DNA of 64,000 nucleotides from Candidatus Thiodictyon syntrophicum (GTDB taxonomy: Bacteria; Pseudomonadota; Gammaproteobacteria; Chromatiales; Chromatiaceae): contig NZ_CP020370.1 of the NCBI RefSeq assembly GCF_002813775.1, forward strand, positions 3,683,501 to 3,747,500. Direction: 5' to 3'. The translations under genes were made by a program, and so were the position numbers. This document shows, in pieces, positions 15 through 46,184 of the stretch (position 1 is its first letter; each line of letters begins with the position of its first letter). The notes below the pieces were generated by a model. That model saw nothing but the letters and a program-made list of their open reading frames with translations, ran no database searches and was not told where the DNA came from.

Positions 15-850
15 ATGAGCAACCTGTTCCTTCCGGCCCGCTTCTCGGAGCGCATCCACCGCCTGGCCCTGGGGGTGGAGCCGCTGGACGCTGCCGGCGG
101 TGCCCGGCTGGGTCACCCCATCCAGATCCTGGTCGAACCGCCCGCCCCCGGCCTGCCCCGCCCACGGCTGGTGCGGCACCTCTCCGGGCTCTTCGTGATG
201 GTCCAGGACCCCGGGGTCCCGACGACCTTGACCCTGCGCCTCTGCGACCTGGGCGCACCGAAGGATGTCCCCGGCTTCCAGGCCCGGACCAACCGCCGCC
301 GGCTGGTCCCGCGTCGGCTGCGCGTTACGATCCCGGCGGCGGACCTGGCCGATACCCTGCCGCTCGCGCAACGGGCGCGCCGCCCCGCGCTCTTCCCCGG
401 CGCTGCCTATGCGGTGACGGACTCGGTGACCGGCCTGCGCGGGCGCGTGGAGCGCGCCGGGGTGCCGGTGCGCTGGGCGCGGGTGGAGGCCAGACGCCCC
501 GGCGCGGGCCCGGCGGACCCGCCGGTGGGCCGCGCCCATGGCGACGACCGCGGCGAGTTCCTGCTGCTGGTGGAGTCCAATGCCGCGCCCATGACCACCC
601 TGGAGCGTCCCTTTGAACTGGACCTGGTGGCCTACCCGCCCATCCCCCCGGCCCCCTGCCGCCGCGGCCCGTGCGCGACACGGACGGGCTCTGGGACCTG
701 CCGGTGGAGACCCTGTCCGCGCCCGGTGCCCCGGACCCGGTGGCCGCGGGCGCCTTTCCACCCGCGGGCTGGGGCGCCGCCGCGCCCCCGGTGCGCGTCG
801 TGCTGGTCTACGGCCGGCTGCTGACCGGCCTGGCACCACTCACCCTATGA
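15..850 (+). CDS. eCIS operon protein with carboxypeptidase-regulatory-like domain, frameshifted
   Basis: The frame opened by the ATG at 15 is convincing up to about 640. It includes a beta-sandwich stretch of carboxypeptidase-regulatory type around residues 130-195, ending in the motif GDDRGEFLL. Downstream, the frame beginning near 671 (VRDTDGLWDLPVE) reads well to the TGA at 848-850. The two halves are joined only by a one- or two-base shift in the C-rich run at about 640-670. This is either a sequencing indel or a true frameshift. The ATG overlaps a TGA at 16-18 that ends an upstream frame (last residues PEPRP), so a preceding gene of the same operon probably lies left of the window. From known eCIS gene orders I infer that to be the Pvc16/DUF4255 type. 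Function in the particle is unknown. Confidence 0.6.
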
Positions 851-919
851 ATACCGCCTTGATCACCGCCTTGATCACCGCCCGGATCACCCAAGAGGAC
901 CGACCAATGGAGGCCACCG

Positions 920-2812
920 ATGCCTGAATATCTCGCCCCCGGCGTCTACGTCGAGGAAGTCAGCTTCCGCTCCAAATCGATCGAGGGCGTGCCCACCAGC
1001 ACGACCGGTATGGTCGGCCTGGCCCACTTCGGCCCGACCTGGTTCGCCGGCGGACCGCTCGCCGTGGAGCCGCGTCTGGTGACGAGCTACACCGAGTTCG
1101 AGCGCATCTACGGCGGACTGGAGCGGCTTCAGGTGTCCGACTCCCGCGACCGGGAGTGCTACCTGGCCCACGCGGTGCGCGCCTTCTTTGCCAACGGCGG
1201 CAAGCGGGTCTATGTCGCGCGCGTCTTCAGCGCCAACGCCGTCAACGACTCGGGGGTCGCCTCCGTTACCGTCAACGTGCCCGGCAGCGACCCCGCCACC
1301 TGGCGGGCGCGCTGGCCGGGCGCCATGGGCAACGTGCACGTACAGACCCTGGTGCGGCGCAGCAAGAATCTGGCCGTCAACTTTCCCGACCTTTACCCCG
1401 CGCCCGACCCGCGTCAGACCTGGGGCATCCAGGCGCCCCGGGTACGTGCCGGGGCGCTGGTGGAGGTCATCCCCAACGGCGATCCCATCCCGCTGGGCAA
1501 TGCACCGCTGGCGCTCGGCCGGCTCGCGGTGGTGGAGGTGGACCAGGACGGGCGCCAGACCTTCCGCGGCGACGGGGCCGCTGTAAACCCCGCGGCCGGG
1601 GACACCATCGCACTCATCGAACTCCAGGTGCAGGTGCGGGTGAGCGCGGACCGGATCGATGTCTACGACGAGCTGGCCACGGACCCGGGGCAGAAGCGCT
1701 ACATCGGCCGCATCCTGCACCCGGCGGACCCCGAGGACGAAAACGCCGTGGTGTGGCTGGACTGGGATCCGGCGCCGGCTGCGGCCACCGTGGATCAACG
1801 CCGCTTCCTGCCCGCCCGCCTGGCCGTGGCGCTGCAGGCCAACCAGACCCCGCGCCTCACCAACGGCAACGACGGACGCATGCCCGGGGTCGACGGGGGC
1901 CGCGACAGCCTGGAGGGGATGGAGGCCCACCCCGACCATGTGGAACTCAAGGCCACCGGCATCTTCGCCCTGGACGAGATCGACGACATCGCCATCGTCG
2001 CCATGCCGGACGGGGCCACCCTGGAGGACCCGGACGCGCGCTTCGTCGCCATGTCGCGCCTGATCCAGCACTGCGAGCAGCTGCACTACCGCATCGCCGT
2101 GGTGGACGGCCCGCTCAACAGCTCCATGACCGAGATCCGCGAGTTCCGCGGCAAGTTCGACAGCAAATACGGGGCCCTCTACCACCCCTGGATCGAGATC
2201 CTGGACCCCAACGAGCGGGCCGCCCAGGGCGCCCCCCAGCGGCGCATCCTGCTCCCGCCCTCGGGCTTCGTCGCCGGTATCTATGCCCGCAGCGATATCG
2301 AGCGCGGCGTCCACAAGGCCCCCGCCAACGAGGTGGTCCAGGGGCTCACCCGGTTCGAGATCAACATCAACAAGGGCCGCCAGGACGTGCTGAACCCGGA
2401 GGGGATCAATGCCCTGCGCTTCTTCGAGGGGCGCGGCAACCGGGTCTGGGGCGCCCGCTGCATGACCTCGGACCCGGAATGGAAGTATGTCAACGTCCGC
2501 CGGCTCTTCATCTTCGTGGGGCACTCCATCGACAAGGGCTCCCAGTGGGCGGTCTTCGAGCCCAACGGACCCCGGCTCTGGGCCAACATCCGGCGCATGG
2601 TCGAGGACTTCCTGCTGGTGCTGTGGCGCGACGGCGCCCTCCTGGGCGACAAGCCGGAGGACGCCTATTTCGTGCGCTGCGACCGCACCACCATGACCCA
2701 GAACGACCTGGACAACGGCCGGATGATCTGCCTGATCGGCATGGCACCGGTGAAGCCCGCTGAGTTCGTGATCTTCCGCGTCGGTCAGTGGACCGCGGAT
2801 TCCAAGGCGTAA
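920..2812 (+). CDS. Contractile tail sheath protein 1 (eCIS)
   Basis: This 630-residue protein is a phage tail sheath family member, the equivalent of Afp2/Pvc2. It opens with the typical PEYLAPGVYVEEV start. It ends with the conserved sheath C-terminal domain: a QWAVFEPN motif near residue 542, then YFVRCD and a beta strand ending FVIFRVGQW. Sheath subunits assemble around the inner tube and contract to drive it into a target. The start is fixed by the good upstream AGG-rich site and the family-typical N-terminus. It lies 12 bases before the tube gene, so the two are surely co-transcribed. Confidence 0.95.
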   Translation: MPEYLAPGVYVEEVSFRSKSIEGVPTSTTGMVGLAHFGPTWFAGGPLAVEPRLVTSYTEFERIYGGLERLQVSDSRDRECYLAHAVRAFFANGGKRVYVARVFSANAVNDSGVASVTVNVPGSDPATWRARWPGAMGNVHVQTLVRRSKNLAVNFPDLYPAPDPRQTWGIQAPRVRAGALVEVIPNGDPIPLGNAPLALGRLAVVEVDQDGRQTFRGDGAAVNPAAGDTIALIELQVQVRVSADRIDVYDELATDPGQKRYIGRILHPADPEDENAVVWLDWDPAPAAATVDQRRFLPARLAVALQANQTPRLTNGNDGRMPGVDGGRDSLEGMEAHPDHVELKATGIFALDEIDDIAIVAMPDGATLEDPDARFVAMSRLIQHCEQLHYRIAVVDGPLNSSMTEIREFRGKFDSKYGALYHPWIEILDPNERAAQGAPQRRILLPPSGFVAGIYARSDIERGVHKAPANEVVQGLTRFEININKGRQDVLNPEGINALRFFEGRGNRVWGARCMTSDPEWKYVNVRRLFIFVGHSIDKGSQWAVFEPNGPRLWANIRRMVEDFLLVLWRDGALLGDKPEDAYFVRCDRTTMTQNDLDNGRMICLIGMAPVKPAEFVIFRVGQWTADSKA

Positions 2813-2824
2813 CCGGAGGCAGCA

Positions 2825-3286
2825 ATGGCAACTTACCGCGACAACCCCTACGGCGCCTTCAATTTCCTGGTCTCCCTGGGCGGCCGGCAGGGGTCCGGGG
2901 ACCCCGGCGTCATCATCGGCGGCTTCTCGGACGCCAGCGGGCTCGGCTTCGATATCAGCTATTCCGAGTACCGCAACGGTAACGAGAAGTTCAACACCGT
3001 GCGCAAGGTCCCCAACACCCACAAGGTGGACGACGTGACGCTCAAGCGCGGGCTGGTCGGCTCCACCGACATCTTCGAGTGGATCAAAGGGGTGCGCGAC
3101 GGTGTCGCCGACCCCCGGCAGGTCACCATCACCCTGCTCGACGAGGCGCGCCAAGAGGTGGCGACCTTCGCCTTGCGTAATGCCCAGCCCAAGAAATACA
3201 CCGGCCCCACCCTGGCGGCCAAGGGCGGGGGCGAGGTCGCCATGGAAGAACTGCACCTGGTCCACGAAGGCATCGAGTACCAGTAG
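2825..3286 (+). CDS. Inner tube protein 1 (T4 gp19 / Afp1-5 family)
   Basis: At 153 residues it has the usual size of gp19-like tail tube subunits. Recognisable features are the N-terminal FNFLVSLGG strand, the central DASGLGFDISYSEYRNG segment, and the TLKRGLVGSTDIFEWI block. The C-terminal EEL..VHEG end is that of the family. It forms the hexameric rings of the rigid tube inside the sheath. It follows the sheath gene with an AGGAGG-like ribosome site (ccggaggcagca) directly before the ATG. Confidence 0.95.
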   Translation: MATYRDNPYGAFNFLVSLGGRQGSGDPGVIIGGFSDASGLGFDISYSEYRNGNEKFNTVRKVPNTHKVDDVTLKRGLVGSTDIFEWIKGVRDGVADPRQVTITLLDEARQEVATFALRNAQPKKYTGPTLAAKGGGEVAMEELHLVHEGIEYQ

Positions 3287-3299
3287 GCGGACCACGGCC

Positions 3300-5339
3300 A
3301 TGTCGGCACTCGCCCGCCTCCCGCTCGGTGCCCCCGGGGTCTACCCCTACCCGGGGCCCGCCCTGCGCAGCCTCACCGGGGTGCGCCTGGATCTGTGCGC
3401 CTTCGCCGGCGTCGCCCCGCGGGGGCCGGCGCGGGTGCCGGTGGTGGAGGACGAGGCCGACGGGCACTTCTGGCGCGGCGATGTCCCCTGGGTGGAGCCG
3501 CAGCGCCCGCGGCGGCGCACCGTCGCGGTCCCCATCGAGAGCTTCGAGGATTATCGGCGCATCTTCGGCGGTTTCGAGGGACCGGGGCGGCTCCCCTATG
3601 CGGTGGCCGCCTATTTCGACAACGGCGGGCGGCGCGCCCTGGTGGCGCGCATCGTCCACGACTACGGACCCGGGGACCCGCGCAACGACCAGGGCGTGGC
3701 CCGCGCCCTGCTCGCCGGGGTCAAGCCCGCCATCGGTCTGCGGGCGCGCAGCGAGGGGACCTGGGGGGCGGCCATGACGGCGAGCCTGGTCTTCAGCGCC
3801 AGCCCCGTCGAGCTGACCCCGGAGGCGGGCGGCCTGCGGCTCGGACCCGGGGCGACGCTGGCCGCCGGGGCCCTGCTGCGGGTCGCCAACGGCGACGGGA
3901 CCCGGGTGCTGCGCTTCGTCTCCCAACTGATCGAGGTCCCCGACGGGGACCGCCCGGTCCACAAGACCCTGGCCCTGACCGACTCGCCCCTGCCGCCCGC
4001 CGCCGTCGGGTCGGTGCCCAGTTTCGAGCAAGTAGAGGCGGACCTGACCCTGGACGACGGCGACGGGCGCATCGAGCGGCACACCGGCCTGGGGCTCGCC
4101 TTCGGTCACCCCCGCTGGCTGGCCCAGGTGCTGTGCGACGCCTCGAGCCTCGCCTGGCCGGAGCCGGACTGGGCGCGCGCCCAGGTCGAGCCGCTCGACG
4201 CGGACCTGCGCCCGCCCCCAATGGTGCGCTTCGACGCGGGCGGCGACCTCAGCGACCGCTGGGCGGACATCGACCACGAGGACTTTTTCGACCCCAGTTG
4301 GGCCCCCGAGTCCGGTGAGCCCGGCAGCGGCGTCTGCTGCTTCGCCGGAGCACGGGAAGCGGCGGGCCACGCGGGGCTGCGGCCCGCCTCGCTGGTGGTG
4401 CCGGACCTCTATTCGCATCGGCCCTTGATCGTTGCCGAGCCGGTCGCGCCGGTGGTGACCCTCGCCGGCGCCGGCTTCGCCCGTTGCGTGCGGGTCGACG
4501 CACCCGCGAGCCAGGAGCCGGCCGCCAACGACCTGCCCGGGCTGCACCTGGACCCGCTCCTGGACCTGGATCAGATCCTGGGGCTGCAGCAGCGCCTGAT
4601 CGGATTCGCCGAGTCGCTGCGCGACCTGGTCGTCCTGCTCGACGTGCCCCCCGGGCTCGACCCCGCGCGCACCCGCCGTTGGCGCGGTGCGCTGGCGTCG
4701 TCCTACGCCGCCGCCTATCACCCCTGGCTTGCGGTCGCCCGCCTGGACGACGCGCGCGACGCCCTGATCGAGGTGCCGCCCGCGGCCCTGGCGGCCGGCA
4801 TCCTGGCCGGCCGGGAGCTGACCTTCGGCGTCCCCCACGGACCGGCCAATCAACTGGCCGTCGGGGCTGTGAGCGCGCTGGCCGCCCTCTCCCCGGATTT
4901 GCACGGGCAACTGCACCAGGCCGGGATCAACTGCTATGTGCGCGACCGCGACGGCCTGCGGCTCACCGGGGCGCGCACCCTGTCCGCGGACCCGGCCTAC
5001 CGCCAGTTGAGCGTCCGGCGGCTCATGATCCTGCTGCGCCGGGTGCTGCTCGAACAGATGCAGTGGGCGGTCTTCGAGCCCAACGGCCCGGCCCTGTGGC
5101 GTGAGGTCCGGCTGCTGCTCGACGCCTATCTGCGCCAGCTCTACCAGCACGGTGCCTTCCGGGGCGCGACCGAGGAGGAGGCCTGGTTCGTGCGCTGCGA
5201 CGAGGGGCTGAACCCGGCCTTTGAGCGCGACCAGGGCCGCATGACGGCGCAGGTCGGCGTGGCCCCGGCGGAGCCCCTGGAGTTCATCGTGCTGCACCTT
5301 ACCCGCACGGGCGACGGCGTACTGAGCATCAGCGAATGA
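3300..5339 (+). CDS. Contractile tail sheath protein 2 (eCIS)
   Basis: I place the start at ATG 3300, giving 679 residues with the typical GAPGVYPYPGP opening; an upstream in-frame extension overlaps the tube gene and is unlikely. The C-terminal domain closely follows sheath 1 (QWAVFEPNGPALW near residue 588, then WFVRCDEG). The middle is longer and more divergent than in sheath 1, as in Afp3/Afp4-type second sheaths that cap the sheath ends or form a distinct layer. That role is inferred from homology. It overlaps the next tube gene by 4 bases. Confidence 0.93.
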   Translation: MSALARLPLGAPGVYPYPGPALRSLTGVRLDLCAFAGVAPRGPARVPVVEDEADGHFWRGDVPWVEPQRPRRRTVAVPIESFEDYRRIFGGFEGPGRLPYAVAAYFDNGGRRALVARIVHDYGPGDPRNDQGVARALLAGVKPAIGLRARSEGTWGAAMTASLVFSASPVELTPEAGGLRLGPGATLAAGALLRVANGDGTRVLRFVSQLIEVPDGDRPVHKTLALTDSPLPPAAVGSVPSFEQVEADLTLDDGDGRIERHTGLGLAFGHPRWLAQVLCDASSLAWPEPDWARAQVEPLDADLRPPPMVRFDAGGDLSDRWADIDHEDFFDPSWAPESGEPGSGVCCFAGAREAAGHAGLRPASLVVPDLYSHRPLIVAEPVAPVVTLAGAGFARCVRVDAPASQEPAANDLPGLHLDPLLDLDQILGLQQRLIGFAESLRDLVVLLDVPPGLDPARTRRWRGALASSYAAAYHPWLAVARLDDARDALIEVPPAALAAGILAGRELTFGVPHGPANQLAVGAVSALAALSPDLHGQLHQAGINCYVRDRDGLRLTGARTLSADPAYRQLSVRRLMILLRRVLLEQMQWAVFEPNGPALWREVRLLLDAYLRQLYQHGAFRGATEEEAWFVRCDEGLNPAFERDQGRMTAQVGVAPAEPLEFIVLHLTRTGDGVLSISE

Positions 5340-7935: not shown

Positions 7936-9022
7936 GTCGCTCTTCACCGCCACGGTCCCGGTCTTCAAGGTCGACGGCCAGGTCCACGGGGAACTGGCCC
8001 GGGACCTGCTGCGCCTGGAGATCGCCGAGGACAGCAGCGGGCTCAAGACCTGCGCGGCGCGGTTCATCGCCCAGGGTCCGATCCCCGGCGGGGAGGACCA
8101 GGGCCTGCTGTATCTGGACGGCAAGGTGCTGGACTTCGGCAAGGGATTCGAGGTCTCCATCGGCCCGGCGTCGAATGACCGCACGGTCTTCACGGGGTCG
8201 GTGAGCGCCATCGAGGCCTGCTTCCGCGAGGAGGGCGAGCCGCAGGTGCTGGTCCTGGCGGAGGACCGGCTCATGGACCTGCGCATGACCCGGCGCATGA
8301 AGACCTACGAGGAGCAGAGCGACGCGGACATCGCCCGGGCCATCGCCGCCGAGCACGGTATCCCGGTCGAGGCGCAGGCCCAGGGTCCGACCTACGACCG
8401 GGTCCAGCAATGGAACCAGAGCGATCTGGCCTTCCTGCGCGAGCGCGCCCGGCTGATCCGGGCGGAGGTCTGGATCGCGGACGGCACCCTGCACTTCAAG
8501 ACCCGCGACCAGCGCACCGGCACCGAGCTCACCCTGGTGCGCGGCAACCGGCTGCTGTCGCTGGACGCCCGCGCCGACCTGGCCCATCAGCGCACCAAGG
8601 TCAAGGTCAGCGGCTACGACGCCGCCGCCCGCGACACGATCGACGAAGAGGCCACCGGCGACGCCATCCAGGCCGAGATCGCCGGGGGCCGCACCGGCCC
8701 CGAGATCCTGGCCCAGGCCTTCGGGGAGCGGGTCTCCTACCGGGTGCGCGAGGCGCCGCTCAAGAGCGCGGAGGCGACCGACTGGGCGCGCGCCGAACTG
8801 CTGCGGCGTGCCCGCGGATTCGTCCAGGTACGGGGGGTCACGGACGGCGCCGCGGACCTGATCGTGGGTTCCAGGCTGTGCCTGGAGCGGGTGGGCAATC
8901 CCTTCGAGGGGGGCGGCTATTACGTGACCCAGGTCTGTCACACCTACGACCTGACCGAGGGCTTTCGCACCCGGTTCGCCGCCGAGCGCCCCACCGTCGG
9001 CAACGCGGTGGCCAGGCCATGA
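7928..9022 (+). CDS. Baseplate hub protein, gp27/GpD-like (first half of an Afp8/VgrG-type spike)
   Basis: This 364-residue protein fits the phage late control D / gp27 hub fold: an N-terminal beta barrel (residues 1-110), the VLAEDRLMDLRMTRRMKTY segment, a YDRVQQWNQSDLAFLRERA helix, then the second barrel ending YYVTQVCHTYDLTEGFRTRF. Hubs form the trimeric centre of the baseplate on which the tube is built. In Afp8 and VgrG, hub and spike tip are one polypeptide. Here the tip is a separate gene starting at 9019 with an ATGA overlap. Confidence 0.9.
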   Translation: MTESLFTATVPVFKVDGQVHGELARDLLRLEIAEDSSGLKTCAARFIAQGPIPGGEDQGLLYLDGKVLDFGKGFEVSIGPASNDRTVFTGSVSAIEACFREEGEPQVLVLAEDRLMDLRMTRRMKTYEEQSDADIARAIAAEHGIPVEAQAQGPTYDRVQQWNQSDLAFLRERARLIRAEVWIADGTLHFKTRDQRTGTELTLVRGNRLLSLDARADLAHQRTKVKVSGYDAAARDTIDEEATGDAIQAEIAGGRTGPEILAQAFGERVSYRVREAPLKSAEATDWARAELLRRARGFVQVRGVTDGAADLIVGSRLCLERVGNPFEGGGYYVTQVCHTYDLTEGFRTRFAAERPTVGNAVARP

Positions 9023-9681
9023 GCAACGATTTTCGCCCGGACGGGGACGCCCCGCGCTATTTCGGCCTCTACCCGGCCATCGTCACCAACCTGGTGGACC
9101 AGGACGGTCTGGGCCGTATCGAGGTCAGCTTCCCCTGGCTGGGGGCGGACGGCGCCACGGTGCGCGCCTGGGCCACGCTGCTCTCACCCTACGCCGACCA
9201 GGATCAGGGGTTCCAGGTGCTGCCGGAGCGCGACACCCAGGTGGTGGTGGGCTTCGAGGCCGGGAGCCTGCGCCGTCCCTATATCGTCGGCAGCGCCTGG
9301 AACGGCAAGGAGTCCCTGCCGGTGAGCCCGGAGAAGGCCAACAACAAGCGCATCATCAAGACCCGCTCCGGCTCCATCCTGGAGTTCGACGACACCGGCG
9401 GCGCGGTCAAGGTGACCCTGTCCACCAAGAGCGGGCACAAGCTGATCCTGAAGGACAGTCCCCAGGAGGTCAGCCTGGAACATCAGAACGGCTGCAAGAT
9501 CACCATGAACGCCGCGGGCCAGGTGAAGATCGATGCCACCAGCACGGTGGATATCACCGCCTCCGTCATGAACGTGCACGCGCCCATGGCGCTCTTCGAC
9601 GGCACCATCAAGTGCACCACACTGATCACGACCTCGGTCGTGTCGTCCTCCTATACACCCGGCGCGGGGAACATCTGGTGA
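9019..9681 (+). CDS. Spike tip protein, gp5/baseplate-assembly V-like (second half of an Afp8/VgrG-type spike)
   Basis: The 220-residue product begins with an OB-fold: YFGLYPAIVTNLVDQDGLGRIEV, FPWL, and VRAWATLLSPYADQDQGF. This is followed by RDTQVVVGFEAGSLRRPYIVGSAWN. The rest is the repetitive beta-helical needle (KRIIKTRSGSILEFDD, then repeated short strands). This is the usual architecture of gpV/gp5 and the C-terminal half of VgrG. The start at 9019 shares bases with the hub stop. No PAAR gene was seen in the window. Confidence 0.9.
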   Translation: MSNDFRPDGDAPRYFGLYPAIVTNLVDQDGLGRIEVSFPWLGADGATVRAWATLLSPYADQDQGFQVLPERDTQVVVGFEAGSLRRPYIVGSAWNGKESLPVSPEKANNKRIIKTRSGSILEFDDTGGAVKVTLSTKSGHKLILKDSPQEVSLEHQNGCKITMNAAGQVKIDATSTVDITASVMNVHAPMALFDGTIKCTTLITTSVVSSSYTPGAGNIW

Positions 9682-11420
9682 GCGCACATCCCTGGGTATT
9701 GGTCGCCCCCTGGTACCGCTGGGACCGCCCCGCGGTGCCCGGCGCCGGGCGCGGCACCGCGCCGGCCTTCCAGAAGTTCTCCTCGGACACCTATGTCCTG
9801 GATTTCTTGGCCAACCCCCAGCGCTCACTGCGCTTCGAGCCCGGGGTGGACGAAGTCCAGGAACTGCACTACACGGCGGCGCCCAAGATCCTGCCGCCCG
9901 CGGCCCTGGCCGGGAAGATCACCAGCCTCTTCCCCACCGGCAAGAAGGGGCAGCCCGGCCCTTTCCTGACCAGTCTGCGCCCCACCGGTCTGCGCAAGAT
10001 TTATCTCGACACCCACAGCCGTCACTATCTGGTGGTGTGCGAGCTGCACTGCGATCTCGCCGGATTCCCCTCCCCGGACGCCCGCGAGGTCTGCCAGGCG
10101 GGCCTGGTGGTGCGCCGCCGACACCTGTCCTATCCGGATTCGGCCCGGGCCGAGGCCCAGGCGATCGTCAAGGACCTGGTGGCAGTGGACCGCGCCATCG
10201 CCGCACTGCGCGGCGCGGCCCCGGGCGCGGACTGCGGCTGCGGCCCCAGTCGCAATCAGACCTTGGCGACGCGGCTGCGCTCACTGTTCAAGACCGCGGC
10301 GCCGGGGCTCCCGGCCTTGGAGGAGACGCGCGCCGGGCTCAATGCCAGGCTCGCCGCCTGGCGGGGCCGCGCCGGCGCCCACTGGCTGCTCGAGGGCTGG
10401 ATCCCCGGGGACCGGGACCGGATCGGGGCCTGGGGCCTGGTGGAGGACGAGCCGCAGGACCTGGTGGAGGCCTGGTCGCCCATGTGGGCACTGTTCGCGG
10501 ACCCGGCCCGGCCCGACCACGATGCCGCCGGGCGGACCATCTTCTACGGGGTCCTGCCGAGCGCGAGCTTCGACACCGACCTGGCCGGCAAGGCGCGCTT
10601 CGACGACCACACCACCTACGAGGTCCGCTGCTTCGTGCGCCGGCACGACCCCCGCTGCCCGCGGGGCGCGGCCCCGGACTGCCGCGGCGAGCTGGTGTGG
10701 AGCCGCGCAAGCGAACGCTACCGGCTGGCCGCCCCGTTCGACCTGCTGGGGACCTCCAACAGGCCCGTCACCATCCAACTGCCGAACCTGGCCGAGCTGG
10801 CCGCCCAGGCGACCCAACTGCCCATCGGCAAGTTCTCGCCGGTCAAGATCATCCAGCCCCAGAGCCTGAGCCCGAAGGTGAAGGATGGGGTCTGCACGTC
10901 CGGCACCATGGGCGGCCCGGCCATCTGTTTCATCTCCATCCCCCTGATCACCATCGTCGCCTATTTCGTCTTCAGCATCTTTCTGCCGATCGTGGTGTTC
11001 GTCTTCGGGCTCTGGTTCCTGCTCGCATTCAAGTTCTGCATCCCCCCGCAAATCGATTTCGACGTCGGTCTGGAGCTCAAGCTCGAGGCCGTGGGTGAGT
11101 TGGGGCTGGATCTGGATGCGGACTTCAGTATCAACGTCGAGGTCGCGGGGGTGCTGACACCGGTGAGCGCCGCCTCCCTCAACGCGGAACTCAAGACGAC
11201 GCTCGCCGGCGGCTTCGCCGACGCCTACGGGTTCGACCCCGGGGACGTCGGGGACGGGCTCGCCGACTTCTCCAGCACACCGCTCAAGGGGCTGGCGGAC
11301 CTGGGCCTGGAGATCGAGGCCCTGCCGGGCGACGTCGCCGCCGACCCCCCGGTGCGCGGCAACATCGAGGCGGATGTGCACTTCGAGACCCCGGTGACAC
11401 GCATGGGTACACCCGCATGA
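9678..11420 (+). CDS. Operon-encoded membrane protein of unknown function
   Basis: I place the start at GTG 9678, which shares bases with the spike stop; the ATG at 9612 would lie inside the spike gene. The 580-residue product has an N-terminal soluble part rich in Trp and Arg. It includes a Cys cluster near residue 180 (DCGCGP). Residues about 415-457 form a strongly hydrophobic stretch long enough for two transmembrane helices, ending FKFCIPP. The acidic, amphipathic C-terminus is rich in alternating hydrophobic residues. I do not recognise a family. A membrane protein in the baseplate cluster could anchor the particle to a membrane or trigger it, but that is inference. Confidence 0.75.
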   Translation: MSAHPWVLVAPWYRWDRPAVPGAGRGTAPAFQKFSSDTYVLDFLANPQRSLRFEPGVDEVQELHYTAAPKILPPAALAGKITSLFPTGKKGQPGPFLTSLRPTGLRKIYLDTHSRHYLVVCELHCDLAGFPSPDAREVCQAGLVVRRRHLSYPDSARAEAQAIVKDLVAVDRAIAALRGAAPGADCGCGPSRNQTLATRLRSLFKTAAPGLPALEETRAGLNARLAAWRGRAGAHWLLEGWIPGDRDRIGAWGLVEDEPQDLVEAWSPMWALFADPARPDHDAAGRTIFYGVLPSASFDTDLAGKARFDDHTTYEVRCFVRRHDPRCPRGAAPDCRGELVWSRASERYRLAAPFDLLGTSNRPVTIQLPNLAELAAQATQLPIGKFSPVKIIQPQSLSPKVKDGVCTSGTMGGPAICFISIPLITIVAYFVFSIFLPIVVFVFGLWFLLAFKFCIPPQIDFDVGLELKLEAVGELGLDLDADFSINVEVAGVLTPVSAASLNAELKTTLAGGFADAYGFDPGDVGDGLADFSSTPLKGLADLGLEIEALPGDVAADPPVRGNIEADVHFETPVTRMGTPA

Positions 11421-40662: not shown

Positions 40663-40891
40663 TACCACATCATCGCCCTGTTCAAGGAGAACGAGCAGTT
40701 TCGCCAGACCCGTGGCCTGATCGAACGCGTCGCACAACACGAATCAAACCAAGTAAACGTCAAGCCTGACGGGGCTGTCACGCCGAGAGCGCAAAGGTGT
40801 GATCACGGTCAGGTCCATGCAATGCCGAAACTACCGGCATCTTTCGCCCTGGTGTACCCTGACCATCCCGCGTTTGCCGGGACCGCACCGG
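40663..40891 (+). other. Intergenic region with possible gene remnant
   Basis: Directly after the TAG at 40660-40662 the same frame continues with a plausible coding stretch (HIIALFKENEQF, then GLIERVAQHE) of about 30 codons. It has no start, and the sequence then becomes non-descript. It may be the tail of a lost gene. No terminator with a T-run was seen. The long frame of the next gene is open from 40799, but its family-typical start is at 40892. Confidence 0.3.
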
Positions 40892-43800
40892 ATGCCAAGC
40901 CCTGACACCGACCGCCCCATCCGCCTGTTGCACCTGTCGGATATCCACTTCCGTGCCGGTCAGGCGTGGGACTCAGACCCCGTCTTGCGCGCCTTGGTGC
41001 GGTTCATCGGCGAGGAAGTCCAAGGCGGGCTCAGTCCTGACTTGGTGGTCATCACCGGTGACCTAGCCTTCGCCGGCAAGGCCGATGAGTACCAACTCGC
41101 GCGTACCTGGCTGTTGGATCGGCTGTGGCCCGCCCTGTCGCCGGCCGCACCCCGAGCACTGCCGCGGGACGCGTTGCTGTTGGTACCCGGCAACCATGAC
41201 GTGGACCGCGGCGAGGTCGATGATGTGGCCAGCATGGTTCAGGAGGGTCTACTGACCAAGGCTGATCAGAACCGAATCGCCGCCGTCCTCAGCCACCCTG
41301 GCCAGCGCGCGGCCCTGACCAAGCGCCACGTCCCCTTTCTGGCCTTCTATGGGGACTGGCTCGGCGAGGCACCGCCCCTACCCTGGTGGCAGCGTAGCAT
41401 CTCGATTAACGGCCAGCGACTACACATCGCCGGGCTCGATTCCGCTTGGATAGCTTGCGGCGATCATGACCGCGGTAACCTCCTGCTCGGTAGCTACCAG
41501 CTCAGTCAGACGGTGCTTCACCCGGACGCCGACGGCGCCGACTGGCGCCTCGCCCTGCTGCACCACCCCTGGGACTACCTGGCGGAGTTCGACTGCGCCG
41601 AGGCGCGCCAGAGCATCCACCTGCACCGGGACCTGGTCCTGCGCGGCCACCTGCACGCGGGTGAGGCCGCCTTCATCCGGCCCCCGGACCCGGCCCGCGC
41701 CTGCCTGGAACTGGCCGCCGGCTGCGTCTACGACGGTAGCCGCCATCCCAACGCCTTCCAGTGGATCGAGTTGTGGCCCGACCCCAAGCGGGTGCGGGTG
41801 CAGTTGCGCGCCTGGGTCAAGGGCGCCTGGCAGATCGATCGGAACCAACCGGGCTGTGAAGATGGCGGGGCGGAGTTTCTCCTCGCCCCGCCCGATTCCG
41901 GGACCGCAGCGGGTGCAGCGCTGCCGCCCCCCGTCGATCCCCGCAAGTACCTGGCCGACCTCTGGACCGAGACCGCCCACCTCGCTATCCGCGGGCTGGT
42001 CACGGGCGGCGCCAAAGCCCACCGCTTTCCCATCGCCGACCTCTACATTGAACTCCAGGCAACCGGCGCGGCAACCGGGCCAGACCGCGAGCGCCAAGAC
42101 CCACACCTTAGCGCCCGTGCCGACCACCCCCTGCGCGCCGCCCTGGTCAACCCGCGGCTCGTCATCGTCGGCGACCCCGGCTGCGGCAAGACCACCTTCC
42201 TGCGTTGGGTCGCCCACTGCCTGGCCGCCGACCGGCTCGGCCGCGACCCGGGCGCCGCCGCCCAGCGCCTGGGCCTGGCACCCGGTCCGACCGGGGTTCG
42301 CCTGCCGCTCTTGGTCCCCATCGTCGACTGGCTCGACTTCATGGAGCGGGCCAAGGCCCGGCACCAGGGACCGCCGCTGGCCGAGTGCGCCGACTGGCTC
42401 CCGGAGTACCTGGGTTCCCGCGCCGAACACGCCAACCAGGGTCTGACGGCGGACGCCTTCCGCCGCCTGCTGACCGACGGTGAGGCCCTGATCCTACTCG
42501 ACGGACTCGACGAGGCCCCCGACCGACTCCAGCGCCAACAGGCGGCGACCCTGATCGAGCACCTGGCCCTGGCCTACCCGGACTGCCCCCTGGTCGTCAC
42601 CAGCCGCCCCGCCGCCCTCCAAGACACCCCCGTCCTGACCGGCTTCGCCCAGACCACGATCGAGGCCTTGGACCCCGGCGCCATCGACGGCTTCCTCGGG
42701 CGCTGGAGCCGCGCCCTCTTCGCGGACCATCCAGAACGCGCCCAGGCCCATCACGCTGAGCTGACCGCGGCGCTCGCCTCCCGCCCCGAGATCCGCCGCC
42801 TCGCCCGCAACACCGTCATGCTGACCGCGCTCGCCGTGGTGCACTGGAACGACAAGCGCCTGCCCGAGCAGCGCGCCGAGCTCTATGAATCCATCATCCG
42901 GTGGCTGAGCGAGGCCCGCGAGCGGCGCCCCGGGCGGGAAAAGCCGCAGCGCTGCCGCCAACTCCTGGCGGACCTGGCGCTCGCCATGCAGACCGAGGCC
43001 CGGGGCCGCCAGGTCCAGGTCAGCCGCCACTGGGCGGCCGAGCGCCTCGCCCACCGCTTCGGTCTGGCCGACGACGCCGAGGCCCGCGAGCGCGCCGACG
43101 CCTTCCTGGCGGAGGAGGAGATCGACAGTGGCCTCATCGTGCGCCGCGGCCACCAGCTCAAATTCTGGCACCTGACCTTTCAGGAATACCTGGCCGCCCA
43201 GGCCCTGGGCGGGCGCGGGGATGCCGAGCGGACCACGCTGCTCCTGAGCCCCGGCGTTACCGAGGTCCCCGCGCTCTATCGGCCGGAGTGGCGGGAGACG
43301 GTCCTGCTGCTGGGCGGCGTGCTCTGGTTGCAGGGTCAGGACCGGGTCGACGACCTGGTCGCCGCCGTCCTCCAGTCCTTGGGCGAGACCCCCACCCGGG
43401 CCGAACAGGCGCGCGCTGCTGGGCTCCTGGGCGCCCTGGTGCGGGATCTGGCCCCCTTCAGCTACCGCCCGGCGGACCCACGCTACGGCCAGTGCCTGAA
43501 TGCCGCAGTGGCCGTCTTCGACCCGGCACAGGCCGGCGCCATCCCGCTCGCCGATCGCATCGCCGCCGCCGACGCGCTCGCCCAGGCGGGCGACCCGCGA
43601 CTGGGCTGGACCCAACCCGGGCGCTGGGTGGCACTGCCCGGCGGGCGCTTCGCGATGGGTGCGCAGAGGCAGGACCAGGCGGTGCCGGGCTACGACCCCG
43701 AGGCCGACGACCACGAGGCCCCGGTTCACAGCGTGACCCTCGCCGACTTCCGGATCAGCCGCTTCCCGGTCACCGTTGCCGAGTTTGCCGGGTTTCTGGA

Positions 43801-44446
43801 CGACGAGGACAGCGCCGACCCCCGCTGGTGGCAGGCCGGCGGGGCGGACCAGCCCCCGGAGCCGAACGACTGGGAGTCCCAGCAGGCCTACCCCAGCCGG
43901 CCAGTCGTCAATCTTTCCTGGTATCAGGCCATGGCCTTCTGCGCCTGGCTGACCGGTAAGCTGGCCCGGCCCCAAGGCGCCGAGGGCACCCTCTGGTTGC
44001 CCCCGGGCCTCGCGGTGCGGCTGCCGACCGAGGCGGAGTGGGAATACGCCGCCCGCGGCGAGTCCGGTCGACGCTATCCCTGGGGCGACGCGCCGCCCGA
44101 CGCACAGCGCGCCAATTACGGCGAAACCAAGGTCGGGCACGAGACCCCGGTCGGCATCTTCCCCGGCGATTGCACCCCGGACGGCGTGCTGGACCTGGCC
44201 GGCAATGTCCTGGAGTGGTGCCTTGATGTCTACCGTAAGGAGTTCTATGCCGAGTGTCAGGGCCAAGGCACGGCGGTCGACCCCTGCGCCACTGGCGACG
44301 GCGGGTCGTCGCGCGTGCTGCGCGGCGGTGCTTTCGACGTCAGGGCCGGGGTCCTGCGCTCCTCGTTCCGGAACTGGTTCGAGTCCTGGGGCCGGGTCCA
44401 GGGCGTCGGGTTCCGCTGCGTCCTGGCCGCGCCCCGCCAGCCTTGA
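40892..44446 (+). CDS. Metallophosphoesterase - NACHT NTPase - FGE/C-type-lectin protein (putative DGR target)
   Basis: The 1184-residue protein combines three parts. Residues about 10-300 are a calcineurin-like phosphoesterase (HLSDIH 14-19, GDL near 57, GNHD 100-103, LRGHLH). Residues about 380-700 hold a NACHT-type STAND NTPase (Walker A GDPGCGKT 427-434, Walker B LLDGLDE near 537, TSRP), followed by helical repeats. Residues about 910-1184 are a formylglycine-generating-enzyme-like, C-type-lectin fold (FAMGAQRQ, RLPTEAEWEYAARGE, LRGGAF, GFRC). In this fold the last segment is the ligand-binding face that DGRs diversify. I infer a sensor-type conflict protein: ligand binding by the lectin part, NTP-driven switch, phosphoesterase effector. 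Start chosen at ATG 40892; 40799 is an in-frame alternative. Confidence 0.85.
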   Translation: MPSPDTDRPIRLLHLSDIHFRAGQAWDSDPVLRALVRFIGEEVQGGLSPDLVVITGDLAFAGKADEYQLARTWLLDRLWPALSPAAPRALPRDALLLVPGNHDVDRGEVDDVASMVQEGLLTKADQNRIAAVLSHPGQRAALTKRHVPFLAFYGDWLGEAPPLPWWQRSISINGQRLHIAGLDSAWIACGDHDRGNLLLGSYQLSQTVLHPDADGADWRLALLHHPWDYLAEFDCAEARQSIHLHRDLVLRGHLHAGEAAFIRPPDPARACLELAAGCVYDGSRHPNAFQWIELWPDPKRVRVQLRAWVKGAWQIDRNQPGCEDGGAEFLLAPPDSGTAAGAALPPPVDPRKYLADLWTETAHLAIRGLVTGGAKAHRFPIADLYIELQATGAATGPDRERQDPHLSARADHPLRAALVNPRLVIVGDPGCGKTTFLRWVAHCLAADRLGRDPGAAAQRLGLAPGPTGVRLPLLVPIVDWLDFMERAKARHQGPPLAECADWLPEYLGSRAEHANQGLTADAFRRLLTDGEALILLDGLDEAPDRLQRQQAATLIEHLALAYPDCPLVVTSRPAALQDTPVLTGFAQTTIEALDPGAIDGFLGRWSRALFADHPERAQAHHAELTAALASRPEIRRLARNTVMLTALAVVHWNDKRLPEQRAELYESIIRWLSEARERRPGREKPQRCRQLLADLALAMQTEARGRQVQVSRHWAAERLAHRFGLADDAEARERADAFLAEEEIDSGLIVRRGHQLKFWHLTFQEYLAAQALGGRGDAERTTLLLSPGVTEVPALYRPEWRETVLLLGGVLWLQGQDRVDDLVAAVLQSLGETPTRAEQARAAGLLGALVRDLAPFSYRPADPRYGQCLNAAVAVFDPAQAGAIPLADRIAAADALAQAGDPRLGWTQPGRWVALPGGRFAMGAQRQDQAVPGYDPEADDHEAPVHSVTLADFRISRFPVTVAEFAGFLDDEDSADPRWWQAGGADQPPEPNDWESQQAYPSRPVVNLSWYQAMAFCAWLTGKLARPQGAEGTLWLPPGLAVRLPTEAEWEYAARGESGRRYPWGDAPPDAQRANYGETKVGHETPVGIFPGDCTPDGVLDLAGNVLEWCLDVYRKEFYAECQGQGTAVDPCATGDGGSSRVLRGGAFDVRAGVLRSSFRNWFESWGRVQGVGFRCVLAAPRQP
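44336..44401 (+). other. Putative DGR variable region (VR1) in the FGE domain
   Basis: Codons for residues 1149-1170 lie between the invariant LRGGAF and GVGFRC motifs. Compared with the inverted copy at 45618-45683, 14 of 22 codons differ by 15 substitutions, all at first or second codon positions and none at a third. Flanking bases (18 before, 30 after) are identical. Adenine-directed mutagenesis of AAY-type template codons produces exactly such a pattern. No template repeat or reverse transcriptase is present in the window, so it would have to act from elsewhere. Confidence 0.7.
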
Positions 44447-44474
44447 CCCATGAATCCATTGACCCTTTCTTCAC

Positions 44475-44495
44475 ACGGACCGCGCAGCGGTCCGT
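44475..44495 (+). repeat. Hairpin downstream of VR1
   Basis: A 9-bp perfect stem (ACGGACCGC / GCGGTCCGT) with loop GCA lies 28 bases after the stop of the FGE protein. No T-run follows, so it is not a rho-independent terminator. Stem-loops just downstream of variable regions are known to promote DGR retrohoming. The same hairpin, with loop changed, follows VR2. Confidence 0.75.
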
Positions 44496-44510
44496 TCGCG
44501 ATTGACAATG

Positions 44511-44570
44511 CAATGACACTTTGTCAGTGTAAGTGTCACTGTCAATCACACTGACACGGCCTGTCAGTCC
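44511..44570 (+). repeat. CAGTGTCA/TGACACTG repeat block 1
   Basis: Several copies of TGACACT and its complement AGTGTCA occur within 60 bases, in both orientations, just before the HTH remnant at 44575. A longer related array lies at 45442-45512, next to the second hairpin. They could be operators for the adjacent HTH protein or part of the duplicated module. Confidence 0.6.
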
Positions 44571-44574
44571 TGCC

Positions 44575-44740
44575 ATGCAACTCACCCTCGAACAAGCCGC
44601 GGAACGTCTGGGCAAGTCCGTCCGCCAGGTACGCTACCTGATCCAGAGCGGTGTCCTGCCCGCCGCCAAGACCGGCGGGCGCTGGCTGATCGCCGCCGCG
44701 GCCTTCTCGTTCCCACGCGCAAGCAGCACTGCCGTCAAGT
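44575..44740 (+). pseudogene. Excisionase-like helix-turn-helix protein, 3' end degraded
   Basis: From ATG 44575 the first about 45 residues form a clean HTH_17/excisionase domain (LTLEQAAERLGKSVRQVRYL, then GGRWLI). After that the frame loses all character. A neighbouring frame near 44710 (RSHAQAALPS) looks like the expected continuation, so a frameshift followed by decay is likely. The open frame runs on to 45063 through repeat DNA. Such small DNA-binding proteins often regulate their own operator, and the CAGTGTCA repeats lie directly upstream. Confidence 0.5.
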
Positions 44741-45441
44741 CAAGCCTCACTTCCAGTCCGGCCTGGGGGCGCCGCACCCCAGTGCGGCCCGGCCTATCCG
44801 CAACACGCAACGCCGCGGTCGCTTGCGAGGTCGCGCCGCACTGGGGTGCGGCGCCCCCAGTGCCGGCTCCCGCCTCAGCGTGTGCGCTGTCGCGAGTGCA
44901 TCTGCCTCGTGAACGGCTCCAGCGATGTCACGCAGGTGTCGGGCGCTTCGCGCCCCGCAGCCCGCGGGCGCAGTTGGATCCAAGGCTTCAGCCTTGGCCT
45001 GCCGATCCAAGGCTGAAGCCTTGGACTCCAACTGGCCGGTGCCTCGGCTGGCCGGAACCATGAACACGGCCGCTGCGACGATCGGAGGCCTTCGGTGAAC
45101 GCCGGATGACCTTGTACCCGTGCAAAAAACCGGAGGTCGAGGCTTCAGCCGGATGCGGCGCCACGTCCCCCTGACGGCCATGAGGGGTTAGCCGTCGCCC
45201 CGGACATGGAAGCCCGCGGAGGGCGGAACTCCGCAGGAGGTTCCGCCGATGTCGCTTGGCGCGCAGCCTGTTGGCGTTTCGCGGCATCTGGGGCGCCTTG
45301 GGCGGCTGACCGTAGGGTCCGCTGTGCGGACCGCCGCCCGCAGCGCCGCAGCGCCACGGCGGATTCCGCGGCTCGGGTTGGTCGCGCGGGTCCCCGGTCC
45401 GCACAGCGGACCCTACGCCGGGTGCACAGCGGCGGGAGGCG
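44741..45441 (+). other. Non-coding, palindrome-rich spacer
   Basis: No credible gene. The stretch holds two copies of CCAAGGCT-xx-AGCCTTGG palindromes (about 44980-44997 and 45008-45025) and two GGTCCGC-xxx-GCGGACC palindromes (45316-45332 and 45396-45412). It also has scattered GC-rich decay products. The GGTCCGC type recurs at 62718-62742. They look like chromosomal REP-like elements collected between the two inverted copies of the FGE module. Confidence 0.6.
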
Positions 45442-45512
45442 TTGTCAGTGTCATTCACACTGACAGTGACAGTGACACTGACAGTGACACTGACAAAATG
45501 TCAGTCAGTGTC
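45442..45512. repeat. CAGTGTCA/TGACACTG repeat block 2
   Basis: A dense array of TGACAGTGACACTGACA-type units, largely alternating AGTGACAC and its partners, lies immediately downstream (on the minus strand) of the second hairpin. It is the counterpart of the block at 44511-44570 and has more units. It has short, irregular unit spacing and no spacers, so it is not a CRISPR array. Confidence 0.65.
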
Positions 45513-45519
45513 AAACGCA

Positions 45520-45542
45520 AACGGACCGCTCCGCGGTCCGTT
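45520..45542 (-). repeat. Hairpin downstream of VR2
   Basis: A 10-bp perfect stem (AACGGACCGC / GCGGTCCGTT) with a 3-base loop sits 30 bases downstream of the stop of the minus-strand FGE remnant. Position, stem sequence and distance mirror the hairpin after VR1. No T-run follows. Confidence 0.75.
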
Positions 45543-45572
45543 GGAAGAAGAAAGGGTCGAAGGATCGAAGGG

Positions 45573-46166
45573 TCAAGGCTGGCGGGACGCGGCCAGGACG
45601 CAGCGGAACCCGACGCCCGGGTCCCGGTCCCCGGGCCCGACCCCGCCCCGGACCGAGGAGCGCAGGAACCCGGCCCCGCCGCCGAAAGCACCGCCGCGCA
45701 GGAACCGCGGCGACCCGACCGCCCCCTGGTCCTCAGAATGGACGTCGTCGCACCACTCCCAACAGTTGCCGGCCAGGTCCTCCAGCCCAAGCTGCGCCTG
45801 CGCCGGGTGCAGAACGGTCTGGTTGACCTGGTAGCGGCCAAGCAGCAGGTGCCCGCGGTCCGTGTCGCCGCAGGCCATCCAGGCGGAGTCGAGCCCGGCG
45901 ACGTGCAGGCGTTGACCGCGGATCTCGATCGAGCGCTGCCACCAGGGGAGCTTCTGGGGCTTACCCAGCCAGTCGGCATAGAACTTGAGATAGGCGGCAA
46001 GGCGCTTGAGCAAGACCTTGCGTTGTGCCGGTGCGGCGAGGACCTTGGCCACCTGGTCCTGGTCGGCACCGCGTCCGATCTCGGCGGCGATGAAACGGGC
46101 CAGATCCCGTAACACCGGGTCCGCGTCCCACGCCGTGCCGGCACGGAAGTGGATATCCGAGAGTTT
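45573..46166 (-). pseudogene. Degraded second copy of the phosphoesterase-NACHT-FGE gene
   Basis: Reading the minus strand from about 46166, the frame encodes LSDIHFRAGTAWDADPVLRDL, jumps to LAAPAQRKVLLKRLAAYLKF, continues to LGRYQVNQTVLHP, then jumps to LGLEDLAGNCWEWCDDV and the FGE end with SRQP and stop. Compared with the gene at 40892, the GDL-GNHD block and the entire NACHT part are missing, yet the frame stays open across both joints. The 5' end is lost where the helicase fragment begins. No start codon is evident. Probably not functional, although its variable region is intact. Confidence 0.75.
45618..45683 (-). other. Putative DGR variable region (VR2) in the degraded copy
   Basis: Equivalent of 44336-44401 on the other strand, between LRGGAF and GVGFRC. 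Its variable codons are mostly Gly, Val, Asp and Pro (GGC, GGG, GTC, GAC, CCC), while third positions match VR1 throughout. One further difference, GTG versus TTC seven codons upstream of the first variable codon, does affect a third position and lies outside the core. Confidence 0.65.
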
Positions 46167-46184
46167 GATGCGGACCCTGATCCT

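Follow-up and report, generated by a model that had tools for sequence, protein, structure and literature searches.

Within a 64,000-nucleotide (nt) stretch of the Candidatus Thiodictyon syntrophicum Cad16T genome (contig NZ_CP020370.1, positions 3,683,501 to 3,747,500; hereafter the window, with positions counted from its first letter), two FGE-domain genes that face each other end in stretches that are variable repeats (VRs) of one diversity-generating retroelement (DGR). We put the probability at roughly 0.88 that these VRs flanked a cassette that once lay between the two targets and whose template repeat (TR) and reverse transcriptase (RT) have since been lost. The locus is a real and well-resolved DGR, dead or dormant, and ordinary in kind; what is unusual is that the whole class to which its VRs belong, six copies in this genome, appears to have been orphaned.

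The VRs were recognised by where they differ from each other. According to a first-pass annotation of the window, 14 of 22 codons differ between 44336–44401 and the reverse complement of 45618–45683, through 15 substitutions of which none lies at a third position; our recount gave identical figures, and all 15 substitutions fall at codon positions 1 or 2. The flanks of both stretches are near-identical, and the inverted repeat spans 171 nt at 85% identity. Were 15 changes placed at random among 66 sites, all 22 third positions would be spared with a probability of 8.6e-4, and stronger evidence than this comes from the contrast with the upstream codons. Over 43 aligned codons upstream of the VR the two targets differ 23, 22 and 23 times at codon positions 1, 2 and 3, respectively, whereas over their last 35 codons they differ 9, 6 and 0 times (third positions, 0/35 versus 23/43; Fisher P = 3.0e-8). 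Outside its VR, target 1 shows the pattern of an ordinary gene evolving under purifying selection, to judge from a comparison with its best match in the genus besides itself, which is the cis target of a DGR cassette on contig C480 of a sister genome (uncultured Lamprocystis bin-0833, referred to here as G006; 80% DNA identity over query positions 118–3503 of 3503). The 1157 non-VR codons of these two genes hold 181, 169 and 377 differences at positions 1, 2 and 3 (amino-acid identity 76%), and in the 47 VR codons the ratio is flipped, with 11, 10 and 3 differences.

The first-pass annotation had also proposed that several targets were acted on, and a search of the Cad16T genome with VR1, in which 40 of 128 candidates were scored, bears this out: six copies were found over ~140 nt at 78–100% identity (Table 1), together with two more distant VR-like ends (70–73%) at C1:5.44 Mb. 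In the codon table of the six copies, the fixed residues LRGGAF and GFRC surround codons of the types NNC, NGG and NNG, a pattern that suggests a template with codons such as AAC and AGG. None of the six pairings of the four chromosomal copies has a third-position difference in the last 35 codons, and directly upstream 14–28 of 43–59 third positions differ in the same pairs. Variation limited to codon positions 1 and 2 of a C-type-lectin/FGE domain is thus found for the window pair and the chromosomal copies, and is less strict for the copies on the plasmid. The genome (7.7 Mb) holds 68 matches to FGE-sulfatase (PF03781). Two FGE-type VR-like ends face each other at C1:5444732–5445839 (locus L081) and share ~70% similarity with the window class; no adenine-biased TR, HTH remnant or RT remnant was detected there, and they may form a second orphan class.

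An intact cassette of this kind is present in the sister genome. We searched with a probe for the inferred template, in which the variable positions were set to A, and at E <= 0.001 obtained matches in 7 of 8 genomes of the genus and in 25 of 194 genomes of a family sample, the latter with at most 4 candidates scored per genome and with weak matches that may belong to other classes. The best match (G006:C480:17280–17405) is a TR rather than a gene end, adjoins an RT gene, an HTH_17 gene and an Avd-like gene, and carries A at most of the inferred positions. Template codons AAC and AGG are present in it. The reading of the VRs, which lie in an FGE/C-type-lectin-type domain, as a DGR hallmark holds. 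Along the RT strand the order of this cassette (locus L143) is target, HTH gene, Avd-like gene, TR and RT, followed by a second target on the opposite strand. Adenines account for 19 of 19 and 16 of 17 changes between the TR and its two flanking VRs, so that in this cassette template adenines are almost the only sites of difference, as is typical of TR–VR pairs. Its RT is a 340-residue open frame with YMDD (RVT_1, 48.9 bits; cut-off 29.6), its HTH_17 gene scores 32.6 bits (cut-off 27), and its Avd-like gene matches NF033474 (E = 9.2e-12) and bAvd (E = 6.8e-10). The HTH_17/excisionase-type gene, at L143:9816–10370 on the minus strand between a target and the Avd-like gene, encodes a protein whose C-terminal part has no Pfam match, and it may regulate the cassette.

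The order target, TR, RT, opposed target also occurs in L217, a contig of the uncultured proteobacterium A14_bin-2326 in which the HTH and Avd-like proteins of G006 have no match, and in G003:C311, where adenines account for 9 of 9 and 16 of 16 changes between the TR and its two opposed VRs. The window shares this layout with G006:C480 and L217 but, unlike them, has not kept TR and RT. Two opposite-strand VRs around one TR, an arrangement in which the VRs form a long inverted repeat, are seen at L143, L217, L186 (G003:C311) and L208 (G003:C152), and among these loci there is more than one RT lineage.

The TRs of these relatives were used for an adenine test of the window VRs. The alignment of VR1 with the G006 TR covers 142 nt (77% identity). 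Of the 15 substitutions in the window, 11 are A in the G006 TR and 11 in the L217 TR (P = 7e-4 and 4e-4), and 12 are A in one or both. A template lacking A at the differing positions, an outcome that would have spoken against a DGR, is thus not what the relative carries, although the match is imperfect. The G006 TR has A in 28 columns, 25 of which vary among the six Cad16T copies, and all 15 pairs of copies differ preferentially, though not exclusively, at TR-A columns (P from 6.6e-4 to 8.8e-14), the best pair (C1:1.16M/C1:2.16M) having 17 of 18 differences there. These coincidences bear on whether the pattern could have arisen by gene conversion, or by a recent duplication of FGE paralogs, with subsequent diversifying selection on the binding face. 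The copies are indeed paralogs whose VR ends are near-identical outside the variable codons, and the opposed copies form an inverted repeat able to recombine. Gene conversion would, however, level the variable codons too, and yet it is these that differ and the wobble sites that do not; moreover, the variable columns coincide with the adenines of a template in another genome, one that lies outside both target genes and beside an RT and an Avd-like gene. We therefore consider this origin highly improbable.

A different question is whether a DGR still acts on these VRs from elsewhere in the genome, as the first-pass annotation had supposed. None of the candidates scored in searches of the genome with VR1 or with the inferred template (40 of 54 in the latter) behaves as the template of the window class: the searches returned the six VRs, the two VR-like ends at C1:5.44 Mb and one TR, which belongs to another DGR. 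As a match to the inferred template this TR ranks directly behind the six VRs (C1:3498850–3498940; 76% over 91 of 126 nt), and its 3′ part differs. Likewise, a search with the G006 RT did not find a full cognate RT; its nine matches are one 106-residue piece (C1:1163168–1163485; 79%), the only RT match above 41% identity, and eight RTs at 30–41% identity. DGR-type RTs as such are present among 11 RVT_1 matches, so that the expectation of such enzymes in the genome holds, but none that is intact and of the cognate lineage was found. Four RT loci have a TR–VR pair by an adenine-bias test (Table 1), and on inspection none of the four fits as a template source for the window class. The other seven RT matches were unflagged by this test, which was run on their 3–4-kb loci only, and nothing was flagged across the 64-kb window (219 sources, many of them overlapping; 662 repeat pairs). 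The test is imperfect: in one run it flagged 6 of 15 loci and left the opposed-VR loci L078, L081, L147, L148, L149, L151 and L152 unflagged, and it missed L227, which carries an RT of the cognate lineage. The Cad16T genome was published as a circular chromosome with two circular plasmids (main text, PMC5944118), and little should therefore be missing from the assembly. One of the four TR–VR loci (C1:5500000–5519000, locus L046) has a non-FGE target; on its minus strand lie an SQ-motif RT in a 634-residue open reading frame (ORF) at 8496–10400, the TR at 10130–10067 and the VR at 11043–10980, in the C-terminal part of a 266-residue ORF. When the repeats are read, this VR and the TR stand in different frames, and the target may therefore be broken too.

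It is accordingly very unlikely that an active DGR in trans, with RT and template elsewhere in the cell, still rewrites the window VRs. Four other TR–VR loci with RTs do exist in the genome, the four chromosomal VRs lack third-position changes in their last 35 codons, and action in trans has been argued for targets in Thiohalocapsa PB-PSB1 whose VRs match the TR of another locus at all non-A sites (main text, PMC10907252). What weighs more here is that no match among the candidates scored behaves as a template of this class and that, the 106-residue fragment excepted, the RTs present are only 30–41% identical to the cognate lineage.

The reading we prefer, in which template and enzyme were lost from between the two VRs, draws on what is left there. 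The remnants of the HTH gene and of the RT, together with both targets, have the order and strands seen in G006:C480, and the window thus reads, in sequence terms, as a G006-type locus with its middle gone. The HTH remnant falls in an ORF (44533–45063) that matches the HTH_17 profile at E = 5.8e-10. An RT gene, a TR and an Avd gene, as a complete DGR would have, are all missing from the window locus, at which the RT is a stump: the Avd-like protein of G006 has no match at E <= 0.01 between 43.5 and 46.5 kb, and between the two VRs nothing matches Avd, the TR or the rest of the RT. Instead, three or more dispersed repeats lie in the gap, and the first of them occurs at no fewer than ~35 other sites in the genome (40 of 741 candidates scored). 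A 29-nt match to the RT start at 45129–45157 was not counted as an RT remnant; the corresponding G006 stretch also matches L042, L045 and L144. Part of the RT remnant (45212–45255) also matches C3:404744–404787 at 95%. Elsewhere, at C1:4643811–4644032, a 23-nt part of the third repeat (45310–45332) occurs five times with ~50-nt spacing, adjoining two FGE genes. In target 2 the FGE match covers only profile positions 165–254 of 255, a piece of the phosphoesterase being joined in frame to the final third of this domain, and no NACHT match was obtained.

Table 1 Features of the window locus (window positions) and related elements in Cad16T and its relatives (genome:contig; RT extents as residues)
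Feature	Position	Strand	Details
Target gene 1	40799..44446	+	1215 aa, reading frame open
Target 1 domains			calcineurin-like phosphoesterase aa 41-287; NACHT, best stretch 559-622; FGE-sulfatase/C-type-lectin-type domain 942-1208
VR1	44302..44443	+	142-nt variable repeat, 3′ end of target gene 1
Hairpin after target 1	44475..44495	+	28 nt past stop; 9-bp stem, loop GCA; like a DGR target site
HTH_17 remnant	44575..44736	+	residues 1-54 of 184; 70% identity to L143 HTH protein
Repeat like a miniature inverted-repeat transposable element (MITE) or repetitive extragenic palindrome	44763..44866		inverted-repeat arms 44763-44795 and 44828-44860; occupies the place of HTH/Avd/TR; dozens of genome copies
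Second dispersed repeat	44968..45066		partly self-complementary
DGR RT remnant	45199..45309	+	36 residues and stop; RT residues 292-331; 62% over 42 columns, E = 1e-6
Third dispersed repeat	45310..45417		inverted ends; directly past RT remnant
Hairpin after target 2	45520..45542	-	10-bp stem, loop GGA, past stop
VR2	45576..45717	-	142-nt variable repeat, 3′ end of target gene 2
Target gene 2, broken copy	45573..46170	-	similarity to targets ends at ~46170
VR-class copies	window VR1; window VR2; C1:1162762; C1:2158994; C3:403287; C3:407947
RT stumps, own genome	C1:1.163 Mb; window		226-331; 292-331
RT stumps, relatives	G006:C472; G002:C1; G002:C157; G002:C179		148-331; 1-125 and 297-331; 272-331; 303-331
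TR–VR loci, own genome	C1:3.50 Mb; 2.97 Mb; 2.23 Mb; 5.51 Mb		12/12; A fraction 0.88; two VRs, 0.81 and 0.82; 64 nt, 0.88

Both window VRs are followed by a hairpin of a type common to this family of repeats. Past the stop codons of 15 of 26 VRs, at a distance of 20–57 nt, we found a perfect stem of 7–10 bp with a GNA loop, typically AACGGACCGC-GNA-GCGGTCCGTT, and no such hairpin at either of the two TRs examined. A GNA-type hairpin with one broken pair follows the VRs at C3:403 kb and in G6B, two G178 VRs have a different stem with loop GCG, and two other VRs have another hairpin with loop AAC. The target hairpin of BPP-1 was reportedly the subject of a 2011 paper with Guo as first author. 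In BPP-1, homing is efficient only if the hairpin is present, and the structure of its stem counts for more than the sequence; the elements described here resemble it in having a GC-rich stem of 7–10 bp downstream of the VR; they differ in the loop, which is a 4-nt GRNA in BPP-1 and a 3-nt GNA here (text of PMC3240598).

The cognate RT lineage was found at E <= 1e-60 in 4 of 210 family genomes, all of this genus. Among the matches obtained with the G006 RT as query, that of G006:C480 is whole; stumps of differing extent are listed in Table 1. A sister-lineage RT in G003:C311 is a 347-residue open frame (54%), and the RT of G004:C20 (49–52%) is split into two pieces. Lamprocystis purpurea DSM 4197 (G002, a draft of ~210 contigs) has two opposed VR pairs, two single VR matches and one partial RVT_1 match. 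In a tree of 24 RTs, those of G006, L217 and Holophagales form one group (support 94/93, not starred) inside 18 DGR-type RTs, which stand apart from six group-II-like or other RTs with support of 100/100. Motif 4 of the three is LGGYLSHW or LGSYLSHW, the G006 and L217 enzymes having LGGYLSHW where (I/V/L)GxxxSQ is usual; we dropped the idea that this is a new motif, since the text of the DiGReF paper lists SH among the variants found at these two residues in 15 of 155 elements (PMC3521204). RT stumps of differing extent recur at several loci of Cad16T, L. purpurea and G006, whereas most target genes retain long open frames. This led us to entertain, as a tentative and on balance doubtful idea, that repeated cassette loss is not mere decay and serves to diversify and then lock, fixing a useful repertoire of sensors. 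If this were true, the loss of TR and RT would be comparable to the ending of hypermutation after selection.

The same stumps are informative about whether the sequenced variant lives alongside cells that still have an intact cassette, as described for DGR 3 and DGR 7 of Thiohalocapsa PB-PSB1 (main text, PMC10907252). In addition to this precedent, the unchanged third positions of the chromosomal VRs imply that homing stopped recently, as a dimorphic locus would have it. However, Cad16T is described as a type strain with circular replicons (main text, PMC5944118), and stumps of varied length at several loci and in several genomes resemble repeated permanent loss; we thus think a dimorphic locus unlikely.

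Loss of the cassette from between the targets would have the following history. An HTH gene, an Avd-like gene, a TR and an RT would have lain between the two facing targets; RT and Avd would have made an error-prone copy of the adenine-rich TR RNA, the errors falling at A. The complementary DNA would then have overwritten both cis targets at their 3′ ends and, probably, four more targets likewise, two of them chromosomal and two on one plasmid, with the hairpin past the stop codon marking the homing site. Later, deletion and dispersed MITE-like repeats would have removed TR and RT, upon which the VRs would have stopped changing. Target 1 remains open as a phosphoesterase–NACHT–FGE protein that probably serves as an anti-phage sensor, its binding face now frozen, and target 2 is broken.

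Several observations weigh against this account or fit it imperfectly. Removal by deletion and repeats is deduced from the layout of the sister locus, the order of events is undated, and by analogy with PB-PSB1 an intact copy could exist in another cell line of the same species. The genome searches scored only part of their candidates. The RT stump is short (36 residues, 62%), and the Avd-like gene of G006 scores under the curated cut-off in each of its two models (45.2 of 80 bits and 39.8 of 40). Over their full 142 nt the two window VRs have two third-position differences, both within the first 16 nt. Among the six copies, 29 varying columns are non-A in the G006 TR, 20 of them through the plasmid copies alone, and in the last 35 codons the copy at C3:403 kb has 6 third-position differences from the chromosomal copies, that at C3:408 kb has 1 from each chromosomal copy, and the two have 7 from each other; by this pattern the plasmid copies would have been last rewritten longer ago, or from another template. 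Positions 44384, 44387 and 44400 are A in neither known template (G006 or L217), so that the template proper to this class is inferred, not in hand; 44387 and 44400 were probably A in it, because several copies vary there, and 44384, which departs in VR1 only, may be a plain mutation. Finally, 5 of the 26 VRs have no stem longer than 5 bp, and the hairpin could be a terminator.

The phosphoesterase in the N-terminal part of target 1 matches the NCBIfam anti-phage model DS8 (E = 1.6e-27, far under the cut-off), and its FGE domain also matches Treponema denticola variable protein 1 (2y3c; E = 3.3e-14). By analogy with the targets of Doré et al., phage sensing is its likeliest role, a role that, in the words of their abstract, remains to be tested (PMC10907252). 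Four of the six targets in the genome have frames above 1100 residues and a fifth has 851; this last target (C1:1160405) may be split, since it starts about where the phosphoesterase match ends.

Because Cad16T is a cultured genome with six diversified sensor genes and no template or enzyme found for them, and because its sister retains an intact cassette, it offers a clean case in which to follow the fate of targets after the machinery is lost: they might decay, be frozen under selection or be re-armed by a new cassette. It also illustrates that VRs can be recognised, and a lost template inferred, from paralogs alone, so that counts of DGRs that start from an RT or a TR would miss such genes. 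A scan of genome contigs with a degenerate VR pattern gave 17 stretches, of which 9 are from Lamprocystis/Thiodictyon or L217; several of the others, among them stretches from Streptomyces, Pseudomonas and Eremiobacterota, resemble chance matches or remote FGE genes, and 6 of the 17 were compared with the probe.

Degenerate DGR loci are themselves known. A literature search for DGRs and Chromatiaceae, with subscription papers and supplements outside it, returned Doré et al. (2024; PMC10907252) alone, and none of the papers listed in a search for DGRs with Lamprocystis or Thiodictyon (10 of 19) has the DGR term; both genus names are absent from the main text of Doré et al., and the main text of the Cad16T genome paper has no occurrence of retroelement, reverse transcriptase or DGR (PMC5944118). 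In Pseudogulbenkiania sp. NH8B, according to the text of the DiGReF paper, distal VRs lie near a strongly mutated RT gene, and the window resembles this case in having VRs beside an RT that, in NH8B, decayed after duplication of the DGR; however, the distal VRs of NH8B still match the TR of the remaining DGR, whereas for the Cad16T class no matching template was found (PMC3521204). A close parallel in the main text of Doré et al. is Thiohalocapsa PB-PSB1, in which degenerate DGR loci were described. Like Cad16T, it is a purple sulfur bacterium with a genome of ~8 Mb and several DGRs, its variable positions lie almost only at codon positions 1 and 2, its C-type-lectin/FGE targets include NACHT and phosphodiesterase domains, and MITE-like arrays stand in place of RT or TR. 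The two differ in that every DGR class of PB-PSB1 keeps one complete locus and that neither a TR nor a full RT was found for the six-VR class of Cad16T (PMC10907252); it is this apparent loss of the machinery for a whole DGR class that sets Cad16T apart.

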